The notes under the pieces are model-generated. The model did no database searches, was not told the origin of the DNA, and saw only the letters and a list, made by a program, of their open reading frames with translations. DNA of 64,000 bases from Acidobacteria bacterium RIFCSPLOWO2_12_FULL_66_21 (GTDB lineage: Bacteria > Acidobacteriota > Vicinamibacteria > Vicinamibacterales > 2-12-FULL-66-21): the NCBI GenBank assembly GCA_001767455.1, contig MELC01000071.1, forward strand, positions 32,555 through 96,554, written 5' to 3'. Position numbers and translations under genes: made by a program. Every line of letters begins with the position of its first letter. Within the stretch, counting starts at the first letter, position 1. Below, piece by piece: positions 5,601 to 11,279 of the stretch.

Positions 5601-6437
5601 TCAGGATTCGTGCATCCAGCGAAGCACGCGCGGGTCGGGCCGCCGGCGCGGGAGCGGCGGCACATACATGGTCGCCATCACCGGGATGACCTCACGGGGA
5701 AGTTTCGCCAGGGTCGTTTCCCGGATGACGGCATCGCAGATCGAGAATTGCGACGCCTTGTAGAGGATGACCGGATGGCGAGCCGGGTAGGACTTGCGGA
5801 GCCTCGAGACGAGCAGCCGGAGGCGCTCGGGGCGGCATGTCATTCCCGGACGCACACTGGGCTCGCCGAGGGCGCCAACCTGCCACAGGATCAGGCTGCT
5901 GCTCGAATCGAACCGGCGCCCGAGCGCCAGGAAATCCGTCGCCTCGAAATGCTGGCATCCGTCGGCCCCCGGATCCACGCCCAGATCCGCGAATAGACAA
6001 TCTTCGGTGGAGACCCCCGGCAGCATGCGCGCGGCATACCCCTCCGTTCGGGCCCGCCGGATGACTTCCTGTCCCGGCCACGCGAACACCCCGGGGTGCC
6101 CGTAGAATGCGGCGCACACGTCCTTCCCCTCGCGTACCGGCCCCAGCATGCGCTCGATCATCTCCTCGTACGTCTGGTGGCGCGGCTTGCCCTCGGCGTA
6201 ACAGTCCTGCAGCGATGTGCCGGTCGGATTCAGCGTCCGGATCCAGTCTTCGGTGATCGCGTTCGTCACCAGATAGAACAGGCGTTCGGCGTGCTGCATG
6301 TGCCACAGCGCCTCGACGGTCGTGTGGACGACCAGGCTGATGCCGGTGCCCACAATGACCAGCGAGCCGCGGGAACGAGCCGGCGGCAGCGCGTTGCACG
6401 CGCCACCGCCGGCACGACTCGAACCCCCGGGTGGCAT
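5601..6437 (-). CDS. Borosin-type peptide backbone alpha-N-methyltransferase
   Basis: Predicted SAM-dependent enzyme of the tetrapyrrole-methylase fold that N-methylates peptide-bond nitrogens, as OphMA (fungal) and SonM (bacterial split borosin) do. The 278-aa protein has a glycine loop VIVGTGI (27-33), Y80-R86-Y90 with the Tyr-x5-Arg-x3-Tyr spacing I recall for the OphMA catalytic residues, FYGHPGVF (111-118), MLPGVSTEDCLFADLG (138-153), FEATDFL (164-170) and LILWQVG (182-188). These last blocks are borosin hallmarks not expected in cobalamin-pathway methylases. The first roughly 24 residues are poorly conserved in look; a later start is possible. ATG 6437 shares one base with the stop of the upstream precursor-like gene (TGATG), implying translational coupling. 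No precursor is fused to it, so it is of the split type. Confidence 0.85.
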   Translation of the reverse strand: MPPGGSSRAGGGACNALPPARSRGSLVIVGTGISLVVHTTVEALWHMQHAERLFYLVTNAITEDWIRTLNPTGTSLQDCYAEGKPRHQTYEEMIERMLGPVREGKDVCAAFYGHPGVFAWPGQEVIRRARTEGYAARMLPGVSTEDCLFADLGVDPGADGCQHFEATDFLALGRRFDSSSSLILWQVGALGEPSVRPGMTCRPERLRLLVSRLRKSYPARHPVILYKASQFSICDAVIRETTLAKLPREVIPVMATMYVPPLPRRRPDPRVLRWMHES

Positions 6438-6880
6438 CAGCGCCGGCGTCCCGTCCCTTTGCGTGTGGATTTGCGGGCGGTCTTGCGGGCACCCCGCTTC
6501 GCGACGGCGGGTCGCTTCGCGCTCCCCTTCTTTGCAGGAGCCTTCTTTGCAGGGGCCTTCTTTGCAGGGGCCTTCTTTGCAGGGGCTTTCTTCGCCGGCG
6601 TGCGCTTCGCGGGCGGCCTCGTCGCAGGTTTCCGCGGTTTCCCCGGTGTCGCCGGTTTGGCCGGTGGCTTCTCGAAGAACAGCTCCAGGGACAGCGGGTC
6701 GTTCAACGGCATCCCGGCGGCCTCCCGAAGCACGTCTGGATCGCGCCGAAGAATGATGTCCCTTTCCTCGGGCGACAGATCCGTTTGGGCCAGCTCCGAG
6801 TGCGGATCCGCCGAGAATCGCTTGGCACGCTCGAGGTCCGTGGCCATGCCGAGTACGAACTGACGCAGGCGCTCACTCAT
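6437..6880 (-). CDS. Putative split-borosin precursor with histone-H1-like tail
   Basis: A 147-aa protein. Residues 1-58 are a small predicted helical domain (LRQFVLGMATDLERAKRFSA, then LSPEERDIILRRDPDVLRE) resembling the LigA-like borosin-binding domain of SonA-type precursors: a Leu-rich first helix, a D-P turn, L(S/T)-EE and a final helix. Residues 59-71 include a hydrophobic SLELFFEK stretch. Residues 72-147 are Lys/Ala/Pro/Arg-rich with AKKAP repeats, like histone H1 or AlgP tails. ATG 6880 is preceded by AGGAGAG, while a frame extension upstream lacks support. It overlaps the methyltransferase start by one base. Which residues form the methylated core is unknown: SLELFF is hydrophobic as known cores are, whereas the AKKAP tail would be novel. 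It could instead be a nucleoid protein. Confidence 0.72.
   Translation of the reverse strand: MSERLRQFVLGMATDLERAKRFSADPHSELAQTDLSPEERDIILRRDPDVLREAAGMPLNDPLSLELFFEKPPAKPATPGKPRKPATRPPAKRTPAKKAPAKKAPAKKAPAKKAPAKKGSAKRPAVAKRGARKTARKSTRKGTGRRR
6526..6600. repeat. 15-bp minisatellite coding AKKAP repeats
   Basis: Five tandem 15-bp units (6526-6540, 6541-6555, 6556-6570, 6571-6585 and a diverged 6586-6600) of the form CCTTCTTTGCAGGGG on the plus strand. Read on the minus strand they encode the AKKAP pentapeptide repeats of the precursor-like protein. Near-identity of the middle units suggests recent slippage and a variable copy number. Confidence 0.9.
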
Positions 6881-6933: not shown

Positions 6934-9525
6934 TTACTGGGGGAGGCCAACACTGGCCAGGAGAGGCGGGAAGCGCCGGTCTGCGCGGAGCCGGTCGAAC
7001 CGTGGATCCACTTTCAGGTACTCGATCCAAGGATCGCGGAGGTCTCGCGCCCGCGCCAGCCACTCGAAGGCCCGGTCGGCATCACCCAGTCCGACGTAGA
7101 TGATTGCGACGCCGCCCGCGGCCGTGCTCTCGTTTGCGTTCGCACGACGTACCAGGTCGTCTCGAACCTTGAGCGCGTCAGCTCGCCGGCCGGCGACTGC
7201 GCGAATGTATCCTAAATCAGCCTGAAGCTCCAGATCCCGCGGGTCCTGCGGCGCCGCGCGTTCGGCTTCGGCGAGGGCCCGGCCGTACTGCCCCTGCAGC
7301 GCGTAGATCTCGGCGAGCTGCATGCGCGTCCGGGGATAGCCCTTGTCCATCGACAGCGCTTTCTGCACTTCCGCGAGCGCCTCGCCGTACTTGCGCTGGT
7401 GCATGAGGATCAGGCCGCGCAAGGTGATGGCGCCGGCCGACAGCGGGTCCTGCTCCACCGCCGTCGTGACTTCGGCGAGCGCCTCCGGCAGCCTGCCTTG
7501 CTTTGACAGAAACGACCCGTACCACCGGTGCGCGGACGCATTCGACGGCTTGAGCGCCAGGGCGCGCCGGAATTCCGTTTCAGCGGCGCTCCATTCGAAC
7601 CGCCGCATGCGGATGTACCCGATGGAGGCGTGGGCCTCGGCCACCGAGTCGTCCAGCGCCAGCGCCTGGGTCGCCGCCTTCAGCGCCGCCGCTTCCGCCT
7701 CGGCCCGCGGCATCATCTGGTACACGTGCAGAAGACTGTACGCGTCGGCGAGTCCGGCATACGCGCGCGCCGACTTCGGGTCGCGATCGATGGCCTCCTG
7801 GAAGTACTGGATACTCCGCTTGAGCCCTTCCTCCGTGCGCATGTTCCAGTAGTAGCGGCCGTGCAGGTAGAGATCGAATGCAGCGGGGTCCTGCGTCCCG
7901 CCACGGCCGGCGGCATCGGCGGCGAGCGCGCTCTGCTGCTGCTCGCTGAGGCGCAGGCTGATGCCCCGCGCCACCGCCTCCGCAATCCGGCTCTGAAGCG
8001 TCAGCACGTCGCCAAGCACGGCGTCGAAGGTCTGGTCCCAGATCTGCGTGTCGGTCCCGGCGTAGATCAGGCGCGCCTTGATGCGCACCTTTCTGCCAGC
8101 GATGTCGGCCTCGCCGCCCGGTCCGGGCTGCACGAACACCGACCCTTCGAGCACGGCATCGACGTTCAACGCCCGCGCGATGTCACGCAGCGGCTTCTTC
8201 GAGCCCTTGAACGAGGCCGCCGACGTGCGGGAGATGACGTTGACGCCATTGAGCCCGCCGAGCGTGCCGATCAGCTCGTCGGTCATGCCCTCGGCAAAAT
8301 AATCCTGGGCCGCGTTGCCGGACACGTTGGCGAGCGGCAGCACCGCGATCGAGCGAACGGCGCCGGCCGGCGCCCCCGCCGCCGGCGGCGTGGGCGAGGG
8401 CCACAGCCAGGCGGTGCCGGCCACGACCGCGATGGCCGCGGCGGCCATGAGCCCCGCGCGCCAGCCCGTCGCGCGCCGGCGGGTCTCCGGCTGCGGCCGA
8501 TCGACCAGACCGTCGTCGTGCAAGGCGCGCGCGAGATCGGCCTCGACTGCGCCGGCGCTTGCATACCGGCGGGCGGGATCGGCCGCGATCGCGCGGTCGA
8601 TCACGCGTACGAACGCGGACGGCAGATCCGGCCGTGCATCGCGCAGCGGCACGAGCTGCCCCTCGCTGTGTCTGGCGTGCAGCTCCTCCATCGTGGCCGC
8701 CCGCACCGGGAACAATCCCGTGACGAGCCGATACAAGAGCACGCCGAGACTGTACAGATCTGTTCCCTGGCTTGCCGGCGCGCCGGCGAGCAGCTCGGGC
8801 GCCAGGTAAAGCGGCGTCCCCGCGACACCGGGGGCCGTGGTGCTCTCGACCTCCCGCCCCGTCCCGAAATCCATCAGGACGATGCGGCCGCCCTTTTCGC
8901 GCATGACGTTCTGCGCCTTCACGTCGCGGTGCACGAGGCCCGCTGCATGAAGCGCCGCCAGCGCCCGGCACAGCTCCATGCCGATGGCCGCGGCTTCGCT
9001 CGCCCCGAGCGGACCGTGCGTGCGCACGTGCGATTCGAGCGTTTCGCCGTGCACCATCTCCATCCAGAGGCCGACACGCTTCTGGTGCTTCGCCACGCCG
9101 TAGACGGTGACGACGTTGGGATGACGCACGCGCGCCAGCAGCCGTCCTTCGGCGGTGATGCGCGAGGTCGTCGGATCGGCATCGTCCGGCTCGGCCCGAA
9201 GCAGCTTGAGCGCGACCTCGCGCTCGAGCTCCCGGTCCCACGCGCGAAACACGTCGGCGAACGCGCCCCCGCCGAGCCGCTCCAGCACCGACAGATGCCC
9301 CCACTCGCCGAGTGTTGGTACCGACAGTGATGGCATCCGGTGTGGCATCCGTACCGGCGCTTCCGGAAGGCTGCGATGCAGTTGGGACAGCGTGGCGACG
9401 ACGCGAAACTGGCGCACGACGTCGCGCTCGGCCGGCGTGGCTTGGGATTCCACGAGGTTCCAGTCGACCGGCACGCCGTCCGCGATCGATTCCGCCAGCG
9501 AGAGGAGAGATGTTTCAGACGCCAC
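6934..9525 (-). CDS. Ser/Thr protein kinase with membrane anchor and TPR output
   Basis: An 863-aa PknB-type kinase fusion. The kinase domain is at about 78-335: glycine loop GGGAFADVF (85-93), ATP lysine K107, catalytic HRDVKAQN (199-206) and DFG (219-221), with LAPE in the activation region, so it looks active. A single membrane segment lies at about 356-376. Then follows a TolB/CadC-like domain (IAVLPLANVSGNAAQDYF onward, to about 540) and a long TPR array to the C-terminus. Expected topology is cytosolic kinase, periplasmic TPR. Its start lies inside the 3' end of the sigma-factor gene (11-base overlap), and 53 bases separate it from the precursor-like gene, so one operon is likely. Substrate unknown. 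Confidence 0.9.
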   Translation of the reverse strand: MASETSLLSLAESIADGVPVDWNLVESQATPAERDVVRQFRVVATLSQLHRSLPEAPVRMPHRMPSLSVPTLGEWGHLSVLERLGGGAFADVFRAWDRELEREVALKLLRAEPDDADPTTSRITAEGRLLARVRHPNVVTVYGVAKHQKRVGLWMEMVHGETLESHVRTHGPLGASEAAAIGMELCRALAALHAAGLVHRDVKAQNVMREKGGRIVLMDFGTGREVESTTAPGVAGTPLYLAPELLAGAPASQGTDLYSLGVLLYRLVTGLFPVRAATMEELHARHSEGQLVPLRDARPDLPSAFVRVIDRAIAADPARRYASAGAVEADLARALHDDGLVDRPQPETRRRATGWRAGLMAAAAIAVVAGTAWLWPSPTPPAAGAPAGAVRSIAVLPLANVSGNAAQDYFAEGMTDELIGTLGGLNGVNVISRTSAASFKGSKKPLRDIARALNVDAVLEGSVFVQPGPGGEADIAGRKVRIKARLIYAGTDTQIWDQTFDAVLGDVLTLQSRIAEAVARGISLRLSEQQQSALAADAAGRGGTQDPAAFDLYLHGRYYWNMRTEEGLKRSIQYFQEAIDRDPKSARAYAGLADAYSLLHVYQMMPRAEAEAAALKAATQALALDDSVAEAHASIGYIRMRRFEWSAAETEFRRALALKPSNASAHRWYGSFLSKQGRLPEALAEVTTAVEQDPLSAGAITLRGLILMHQRKYGEALAEVQKALSMDKGYPRTRMQLAEIYALQGQYGRALAEAERAAPQDPRDLELQADLGYIRAVAGRRADALKVRDDLVRRANANESTAAGGVAIIYVGLGDADRAFEWLARARDLRDPWIEYLKVDPRFDRLRADRRFPPLLASVGLPQ

Positions 9526-10231
9526 GGGACATCTCCTGCGCGAGCCGCACGAGTGCGCGGCTCACCGCCATGCGCGCCGCGTCGGGCGAGGGCTTGTCGA
9601 GCGCCTCCGCCACCTCGTCGTACCCGGCATCCATTTCGACGCGGGTGACGATGGCCGCCCGATCCTCGGGTCGCAGTCGTGCGAGCGCGGCCTCGTACCG
9701 TTCGACAGCCTCCCTGCCGATGGCCTCGTCGAGCGGTGAGGCGTCGCTGCCCTCCTGGTTCTCGTCGAGTTCTGTCGTCGTTGGCCCCCGCCGGCTGCGG
9801 CGAACCTCGTCGCGGATCCGGTTCATCACGGCCTGCCGCAGGTAGGCCTGCAGCGCCCCCTCGTGCCGCGGCTCAAAGTGGTCCAACCGGTTGACCGCGC
9901 GGACGACGGTTTCCTGGACGAGATCGTCGGTGTCCATCAGATCGCGGGTCCACCGGGGCAGACGGCCGCTCGCCCACCGGCGCAGCGCGGGCAGACATCG
10001 AGTAAACAGCCGGTCGAGCGCCGCGCGGTCGCCGCTTTTCGCGCGCTGCACGAGGTCGACCGTCGACTCGAGACCGGAAGGCCGGAGCTCATCCATGGGT
10101 GTTGCTGGTGCCCGCAGTGACGACAGGGCGTCCGTATCATAAAGGTTCGCCTGCTGGGTTTGAAGCGTGATGTTCAGGCCGGTCAGCGCGATAGCCGGCA
10201 GCCAGACGCTTCCCATGGTGATCGGCCCCAT
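9515..10231 (-). CDS. ECF-like RNA polymerase sigma factor
   Basis: Region 2 is seen in DLVQRAKSGDRAALDRLF through the helix TDDLVQETVVRAV, then a linker and region 4 with LRPEDRAAIVTRVEMDAGYD and a recognition-helix area ending MAVSRALVRL. Family members are about 190 aa. ATG 10096 would give 193 aa, but ATG 10231 has a better Shine-Dalgarno (GAGGGG, 7 bases upstream), adding an unconserved 45-residue N-terminus; the start is therefore uncertain. It overlaps the kinase gene by 11 bases. Such sigma-kinase pairs are common in acidobacteria and planctomycetes; the kinase may control it. No anti-sigma factor is adjacent. Confidence 0.85.
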   Translation of the reverse strand: MGPITMGSVWLPAIALTGLNITLQTQQANLYDTDALSSLRAPATPMDELRPSGLESTVDLVQRAKSGDRAALDRLFTRCLPALRRWASGRLPRWTRDLMDTDDLVQETVVRAVNRLDHFEPRHEGALQAYLRQAVMNRIRDEVRRSRRGPTTTELDENQEGSDASPLDEAIGREAVERYEAALARLRPEDRAAIVTRVEMDAGYDEVAEALDKPSPDAARMAVSRALVRLAQEMSRGV

Positions 10232-10319: not shown

Positions 10320-11279
10320 ATGGGAATATCTCCCGTTGAAGGTGCGAGCAAGGCTATGGCCCTGATAACCGGACGGCGCGGGGGCCCGTATGAGCTGGAG
10401 GCCCTCATCGGCAAGGGCGGGTTGGGCGAGGTCTATCGCGCCCGCGATACGCAGCTCAATCGGCGTGTGGCGTTGAAATTCCTGGCGCCGGGACCGCCAG
10501 GGAACGAAGAGACCCTGGCGCGGTTCGGCCGCGAAGCGCGCACCGGGGCCCTTCTCAATCACCCGAACATCGTCGCCGTGTACGACGTCGGCACCCACGA
10601 CGGCGCACCATTCGTCGTCTCGGAACTGCTCGAGGGGCAGACGCTTCGCTCGGCCTTGAGCGCGGGAGCGCTTCCGGCCGACCTCGCCGTGCATTATGCG
10701 CGGCAGATGACGGAGGGACTCGTCGCCGCGCACGAGATCGGCGTCGTCCACCGCGACTTGAAGCCGGAGAACATCTTCATCACGGCCCTGAGCGTCGTCA
10801 AGATCCTCGACTTCGGCCTCGCCGGGCGCCGGCAGCAGGCGCTCGAGGAGTTGGAGGACACGTCGGTCGCGACCTGGCCGCACAACCTGCTGGGCACGGT
10901 GGGATACATGTCGCCCGAACAGATCCGCGGGCTGGCGCTCGACGAGCGGTCCGATCTGTTCAGCGTCGGCGTGATGCTGTTCGAGATGGTCTCGGGGGTG
11001 CCGCCGTTCTGGGCACGATCGCCGGTCGAGACGCTCAGCGCCATCCTGCAACAGGAGCCGCCGATGCTCCGGAGGTACTGCGACGCCGCGCCGGACCTGG
11101 AACGCATCATCCGCCACTGCCTCGTGAAGGATCGCGAGTACCGGTTCCAGTGCGCGCGCGATCTGCTCGTGAACCTGGAGCTCATCGCACCCGCCGGGTT
11201 GCAGGCGGGACGTAACCGGGATTTCGAAGTCAGTCCGATCCGGCCGGGCCTGGTGACGTCACTATTGAAGTTCATGTGA
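10320..11279 (+). CDS. Short soluble Ser/Thr protein kinase
   Basis: A 319-aa kinase consisting of little more than the catalytic domain. It has IGKGGLGEVYRARD (30-43), K53, HRDLKPEN (144-151), DFGLAG (164-169), and a MSPEQIRG activation/APE-type region. All catalytic residues are present, so it should be active. The C-terminus ends about 30 residues after the kinase fold, with no membrane segment or sensor domain, unlike the two neighbouring kinases. It is divergent from the sigma/kinase operon (start-to-start gap 88 bases), so the two may share a regulatory region. Start ATG 10320; ATG 10356 is a possible alternative. Confidence 0.87.
   Translation: MGISPVEGASKAMALITGRRGGPYELEALIGKGGLGEVYRARDTQLNRRVALKFLAPGPPGNEETLARFGREARTGALLNHPNIVAVYDVGTHDGAPFVVSELLEGQTLRSALSAGALPADLAVHYARQMTEGLVAAHEIGVVHRDLKPENIFITALSVVKILDFGLAGRRQQALEELEDTSVATWPHNLLGTVGYMSPEQIRGLALDERSDLFSVGVMLFEMVSGVPPFWARSPVETLSAILQQEPPMLRRYCDAAPDLERIIRHCLVKDREYRFQCARDLLVNLELIAPAGLQAGRNRDFEVSPIRPGLVTSLLKFM

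Follow-up and report, generated by a model that had tools for sequence, protein, structure and literature searches.

Introduction

In a putative acidobacterium a methyltransferase gene follows directly behind the gene of a small protein. The question raised by this locus is whether the two form a split borosin, a system defined by the separate encoding of enzyme and precursor (PMC8429565), and, if so, what could govern the making of its product. A preliminary description had read the pair as a split borosin, possibly with no further tailoring genes. Here we report a computational analysis of the whole stretch of DNA (the window, 64,000 nucleotides) and of related loci.

Results

Locus layout

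The pair stands last in an operon with the gene order ECF sigma factor, membrane TPR Ser/Thr kinase, precursor, methyltransferase (Table 1). Coordinates and gene calls place both genes as first described: the TGA of the precursor gene and the ATG of the methyltransferase gene overlap as TGATG with one base in common, and the motifs FYGHPGVF and MLPGVSTEDCLFADLG are both found in the methyltransferase. A Shine-Dalgarno-like AAGGAGAG lies just 5' of the precursor gene, and the sigma gene overlaps the start of the kinase gene by 11 bases. Two close relatives also have the second kinase of the table (61.8% and 56.8% identity) beside their sigma gene. Antisense to precursor and methyltransferase runs a 255-aa open frame (window 6096-6863, + strand), most likely a high-GC shadow frame. 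That the host is an acidobacterium is supported by the end of the contig (C71): the 5' end of a 16S rRNA gene makes up its first 187 bases and contains, with zero mismatches, the 31F primer site, which we take to be specific to Acidobacteria.

Table 1. Features of the locus, in window coordinates
Feature	Position	Strand	Basis or remark
Predicted borosin alpha-N-methyltransferase, 278 aa, SonM/OphMA family	5601..6437	-	SonM match, active-site residues, fold of a relative
Separately encoded precursor, 147 aa	6437..6880	-	Gene call, leader profile
Predicted borosin binding domain (leader), precursor residues 1-58, five predicted helices	6707..6880	-	Profile and model
Candidate core, precursor residues 62-71, PLSLELFFEK	6668..6697	-	Register with SonA L63/I65 alone
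Lys-, Pro- and Ala-rich tail resembling histone H1, precursor residues 72-147	6440..6667	-	Composition, model matches
15-base tandem repeat, 4.5 copies, 96% match, coding for APAKK units of the tail	6526..6592	-	
Ser/Thr kinase, 863 aa, likely transmembrane segment, C-terminal TPR repeats, HRD and DFG kept	6934..9525	-	
ECF sigma factor, DTDDLVQE kept in region 2.2	9515..10231	-	8/8 testable loci
Second, divergent Ser/Thr kinase without TPR	10320..11279	+	Unit membership uncertain

The methyltransferase

In a search of all solved structures the methyltransferase matched SonM with an E-value of 1e-53 and OphMA with 3e-53, while the best non-borosin match, cobalt-precorrin-4 methylase, reached 8e-4. 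Residues Y80, R86, Y90 and Y112 align with SonM Y58, R67, Y71 and Y93, and the four corresponding active-site positions (the triad Y, R, Y and the Tyr of YGHPG) are invariant among 17 aligned relatives. The triad had been described as spaced as in OphMA; its residues were right, as the alignment with SonM demonstrates, but its spacing was not, since it measures 6+4 residues against 9+4 in SonM because the window enzyme lacks three residues of the side-clamp loop. The fold was tested on a relative (G129, locus L046) in which the stop was read through in-frame, so that precursor and enzyme formed one chain. The best fold match of this model was SonM (7ltc_A; E 2.8e-30, target TM 0.90), and the model contains both domains at a pTM of 0.66. 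Fused alignments with partner-only rows, in which leaders fell inside the enzyme, were not used for modelling. A grouping with cobalamin or diphthamide methylases, the outcome that would have told against the borosin reading, was not observed; borosin enzymes match best. On these comparisons the methyltransferase is assigned to the borosin alpha-N-methyltransferase family.

The precursor leader

Searched as a single sequence, the window leader gave gallate dioxygenase as its best match (E 0.14) and other, weak dioxygenase matches; its kinship with SonA was invisible at this level, and a profile of partners was therefore needed. A leader profile of 15 partner proteins (precursors), from which SonA was left out, matched SonA with E-values of 3e-11 to 4e-11, the OphMA clasp with about 3e-6 and the dbOphM clasp with 1.5e-6, whereas LigA-type dioxygenase domains were matched more weakly than SonA and the clasps. 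The predicted model of the window leader has five helices in residues 3-54 (pLDDT mostly >88), and Foldseek ranks LigA domains of dioxygenases, the OphMA clasp and SonA as its best folds, although the E-values are weak, the domain being so small. The SonA paper likewise reports this structural relationship to dioxygenases (PMC8429565). As a candidate identity, the LigA dioxygenase subunit was rejected at 19.8 bits against a cut-off of 25.3, and by inspection no dioxygenase gene was recognised in the first 14 kb of the window. The earlier likening of the first 58 or so residues to the binding domain of SonA is thus borne out by profile and model alike. Taken together, enzyme family, active-site residues, binding domain and gene order agree with the preliminary description, and the locus is, judged by sequence, a split borosin pair with precursor and enzyme on separate genes.

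The candidate core

Among 14 precursors, hydrophobic residues concentrate at +16 to +22 past the last conserved leader Asp and are nearly gone at +23 to +25; seven Met occur at +16 to +18. The methylated residues of SonA, L63 and I65 (PMC8429565), stand at +17 and +19 in this register. The corresponding segment of the window precursor is PLSLELFFEK, and from this register only we infer that residues 62-71 or so are the core. In three relatives (G122, G187 and G002) the segment in core register is weakly hydrophobic.

The lysine-rich tail

Residues 71-147 of the precursor comprise 20 Lys and 11 Arg (31 Lys/Arg in 77), 14 Pro, 18 Ala and zero acidic residues. The densest stretch of 40 residues contains 13 Lys, a number that does not exceed 7 in any other long open reading frame of the window, and the net charge of the precursor is +25, compared with +11 to +24 in the six class relatives that have C-terminal tails. 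Most precursors of the class have such a Lys-rich, H1-like stretch; it is N-terminal in G097 (+6) and G188 (+16), and missing from G004. Outside the class it occurs in the precursor of G526 and, as repeats, in one of the three precursors of G476, while short precursors are devoid of it. In the small proteins linked to SagB-type enzymes (see below) it is mostly N-terminal. The tail matched the HC2 model (E 2.5e-4, 21.6 bits, cut-off 40) and the Burkholderia-type model hist_H1_lk_Burk (E 1.8e-6, 28.3 bits, cut-off 80). A bacterial histone H1-like protein was rejected as an identity, the matches being below curated cut-offs and reflecting composition only; the tails of relatives are likewise similar in composition, not in sequence. 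The basic stretch changes its place with respect to the leader and also occurs in SagB systems; for these reasons we regard it as a module apart from the core, probably a polycationic handle and not the methylated segment.

Two relatives have repeats of another kind. The G188 precursor (locus L048, 5449-5883) carries, besides its N-terminal Lys-rich stretch, four EQNN units with V/I/L on their flanks, which may be several cores, and the third precursor of G476 (locus L049) has about eleven AAIKAKT-like repeats.

Conservation of the operon

Of 193 genomes of the class, 11 have a homologue of the enzyme, as have 13 of 396 sampled in the phylum; the window genome is counted in both. A kinase ortholog lies directly upstream of the precursor at all ten class loci with enough sequence (window included), and an ECF sigma gene lies upstream of the kinase at all eight testable ones. 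At the eleventh class locus (G006) the contig ends too early for the upstream test; its flanks are nearly identical to those of G187, and the two are to be counted once. These two loci (L045 and L043, respectively) belong to different families and also have near-identical methyltransferases, which could reflect recent transfer or mis-binning. Two kinds of domain, Pkinase and TPR, were recognised in the window kinase, and the sequence that links them probably contains a membrane segment, as judged by inspection.

G476, which belongs to another class of the phylum, has three consecutive kinase/precursor/methyltransferase cassettes (L049, 2942-13925), and the kinase also adjoins borosin genes in G483 and G206; other members of the phylum (G526, G448, G220 and others) have the borosin enzyme without the kinase. 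The precursors of the G476 cassettes are on the opposite strand. Only the sigma factor, the kinases and the pair are gene families common to the flanks of relatives, in which a search for additional conserved genes of tailoring, proteolysis or transport found none; the window methyltransferase has a glycosyltransferase gene next to it, and this gene is not conserved in relatives. This supports the earlier suggestion that no further tailoring genes are involved.

A scan of genome contigs with a single protein gave two distant loci only. Elsewhere, at loci L055, L057, L058 and L062 (G232, G255 and G220), there are three borosin-type methyltransferase genes per genome, mostly clustered and without a recognisable adjacent leader; upstream of one of them (L058, 534-1262) lies a PilZ-like gene. 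In a Lysobacterales MAG (locus L005, 6245-6544) a small acidic-tailed protein, a possible precursor, is encoded downstream of a borosin-type methyltransferase.

A kinase chassis shared with SagB-type enzymes

Among relatives of the kinase without a neighbouring methyltransferase, the closest mostly have behind them genes for a small protein, usually Lys-rich, and a SagB-type dehydrogenase. At 17 of 25 TIGR04511-related (SagB-related) loci of the class the kinase lies directly upstream on the same strand, and at three more it is convergent. Two of the SagB-type enzymes scored 118 bits against TIGR03605 (SagB; cut-off 78.4), and below the cut-off of TIGR04511. All six kinases with at least 53% full-length identity to the window kinase adjoin a methyltransferase. 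In the kinase tree the methyltransferase label is strongly clustered, with 3 changes against a shuffled mean of 11.6 and none of 500 shuffles as low; the starred branches nevertheless force at least 3 changes of label, and a SagB pair (G109, G184) is placed among the close relatives of the window kinase. In G002 a SagB gene lies directly upstream of a sigma-kinase-precursor-methyltransferase set on one contig (C249). A search for overlapping ends that would join G002 contigs C302 and C249 found none, so that the evidence for two cassettes in this genome is the SagB remnant which immediately precedes the sigma gene on C249. From the clustering with its forced changes, the position of G109 and G184, and the arrangement in G002, gene order and phylogeny point to an exchange of the modifying enzyme, methyltransferase against SagB-type, on one regulatory scaffold.

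Three leaders of the borosin set weakly match TIGR04509, and the cyclase model TIGR04510 is absent among the matches of the window kinase C-terminus. At loci L077, L080 and L090 (G070 and G046) kinase genes alternate with strongly basic small proteins, and a SagB gene lies some kilobases off. The borosin reading of the preliminary description thus stands, but that description had missed the conserved sigma and kinase genes, the Lys-rich H1-like tail and the SagB-type exchange.

Discussion

We consider it rather probable that the locus as a whole is a kinase-controlled split borosin pathway, in which the leader docks, the core near residues 62-71 is methylated, the tail is a separate handle, and kinase and sigma factor control the operon. 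According to this hypothesis the five-helix N-terminal domain of the precursor would dock on the methyltransferase, which would use SAM to methylate backbone amides of the hydrophobic segment just past the leader. The Lys-rich tail may tether the product to a nucleic acid, a membrane or a cell-surface polymer as its anionic target, or present it to the kinase, although a reading of the modified product by the kinase is speculation. The membrane TPR kinase and the ECF sigma factor would sense a signal and control the operon. Phosphorylation of a cognate ECF sigma factor by a membrane kinase with periplasmic TPRs is established for PknS/EcfK, and in ECF43 sigmas a phosphorylated Thr replaces acidic residues of region 2.2 (PMC13147305). 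An assignment of the window sigma to this kinase-activated type was rejected, as its DTDDLVQE keeps the acidic DxxDxxQE. Consequently, any control by the window kinase would act differently from that of ECF43.

Two rival explanations concern the partner protein. The Lys-rich repeat tail could itself be a multi-site core, along which the enzyme would run from N to C and methylate Ala and Lys amides to give a polycationic N-methylated product. Near-exact tandem repetition of the tail units at the DNA level speaks for this, as do the repeat arrays past the leader in relatives (AAIKAKT in G476, EQNN units in G188), which resemble multiplied cores. However, Pro makes up 14 of the 77 tail residues, and its amide lacks a hydrogen that a methyl group could replace; the basic stretch, being N-terminal in G097 and G188 and present with SagB-linked proteins, does not track the methyltransferase; and the borosin cores tested are mainly hydrophobic (PMC11285071). 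We therefore regard methylation of the tail as unlikely, if worth bearing in mind. Less likely still is a partner that acts as a histone-H1-like DNA-binding protein, its methylation being a regulatory protein modification without a peptide product. The HC2 and hist_H1_lk_Burk matches and the signalling context supplied by the kinase would fit such a role, but those matches are far under curated cut-offs and confined to a low-complexity tail whose likeness among relatives is one of composition and not of sequence, and the N-terminus of the partner is that of a borosin leader.

There are two further explanations. Kinase and sigma genes might be no more than frequent neighbours in kinase-rich genomes, with no functional tie to the pair, and about 107 first-look candidates for this kinase in the window's own genome lend this some weight. 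By our own estimate, though, a random upstream neighbour would be such a gene in only about 2% of cases, against ten of ten observed, and the three tandem cassettes of G476, the closest kinases (six of six at 53% identity or more adjoin a methyltransferase) and the tree clustering (0/500 shuffles) make a chance association very improbable. Hardly any credence can be given to the view that the enzyme is a common methylase of tetrapyrroles (cobalamin/siroheme) or of another small molecule, and that the small gene next to it is unrelated. The enzyme does belong to the same superfamily, with a Pfam TP_methylase match of 63.8 bits, but all its best matches of solved structure are borosin enzymes, with a lead of about 50 orders of magnitude, the fold of the G129 relative matches SonM (target TM 0.90), and the leader of the partner belongs to a borosin system.

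If the kinase-controlled pathway is correct, its meaning reaches beyond the pair. A conserved receptor kinase and sigma factor in the operon offer a handle on when and why bacterial borosins, whose role is mostly unknown, are made. If a SagB-type enzyme does take the place of a methyltransferase on one scaffold, RiPP chemistries would act as swappable output modules; the arrangement suggests one control system serving swappable peptide chemistries. We tentatively extend this, with less than even confidence, to a single ECF sigma/TPR-kinase chassis in Acidobacteria, on which interchangeable enzymes act on small, often polycationic proteins, the modified protein being the product and maybe a signal for the kinase TPR. 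A backbone-methylated protein with an H1-like polycationic tail would also differ from the released cyclic peptides of fungi.

Comparison with known systems

The nearest known system is the type IV split borosin SonM/SonA of Shewanella oneidensis (PMC8429565), which like the window has a separate enzyme, an N-terminal five-helix precursor domain, the four active-site residues and a hydrophobic segment at the position of L63/I65. SonA, however, has about 71 residues, whereas the window precursor has 147 with its Lys-rich, H1-like extension; a short precursor of the SonA kind (about 70-75 residues) ends in the core, whereas here 76 basic tail residues follow the candidate core. SonM also has the three side-clamp loop residues that are missing in the window enzyme, and the window pair differs in standing behind an ECF sigma factor and a TPR kinase. 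A short precursor was not part of the 2021 definition of split borosins (PMC8429565), and the locus may belong to one of the types defined later. Types 0-XI have been defined (PMC11395268, PMC11285071) and reviewed together with KchMA (PMC11395268); they have the borosin enzyme family in common with the window, and the type VIII architecture extends about 160 residues beyond the core (PMC11395268). Basic tails, kinase linkage and Acidobacteria were not found in that review. A partial literature search, with the primary papers on types V-X outside its range, yielded no paper in which borosins are connected with Acidobacteria, with histone-like tails or with an operon of kinase and sigma factor, and a search of the same partial kind none linking kinase, SagB and borosin.

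The fused fungal borosins OphMA and dbOphMA resemble the window in enzyme family, catalytic residues and a clasp homologous to the precursor leader, but in the window leader and core form a separate protein. PknS/EcfK of Xanthomonas citri and PknT/EcfP of Vibrio (ECF43; PMC13147305) likewise combine an ECF sigma factor with a membrane Ser/Thr kinase with C-terminal TPRs. They are linked to a secretion system, whereas the window sigma keeps DxxDxxQE and shares its operon with a borosin pair. In the systems described by TIGR04509/TIGR04511 (NHLP-related RiPP peptide; SagB-related dehydrogenase) and TIGR03903 (TOMM kinase/cyclase), as seen in related genomes, the same kinase precedes a basic protein and SagB, whereas the modifying enzyme of the window is a predicted borosin methyltransferase. 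Split borosins as such were known already; what this locus adds to them is the kinase/sigma operon, the SagB-type exchange and the H1-like tail of the precursor.
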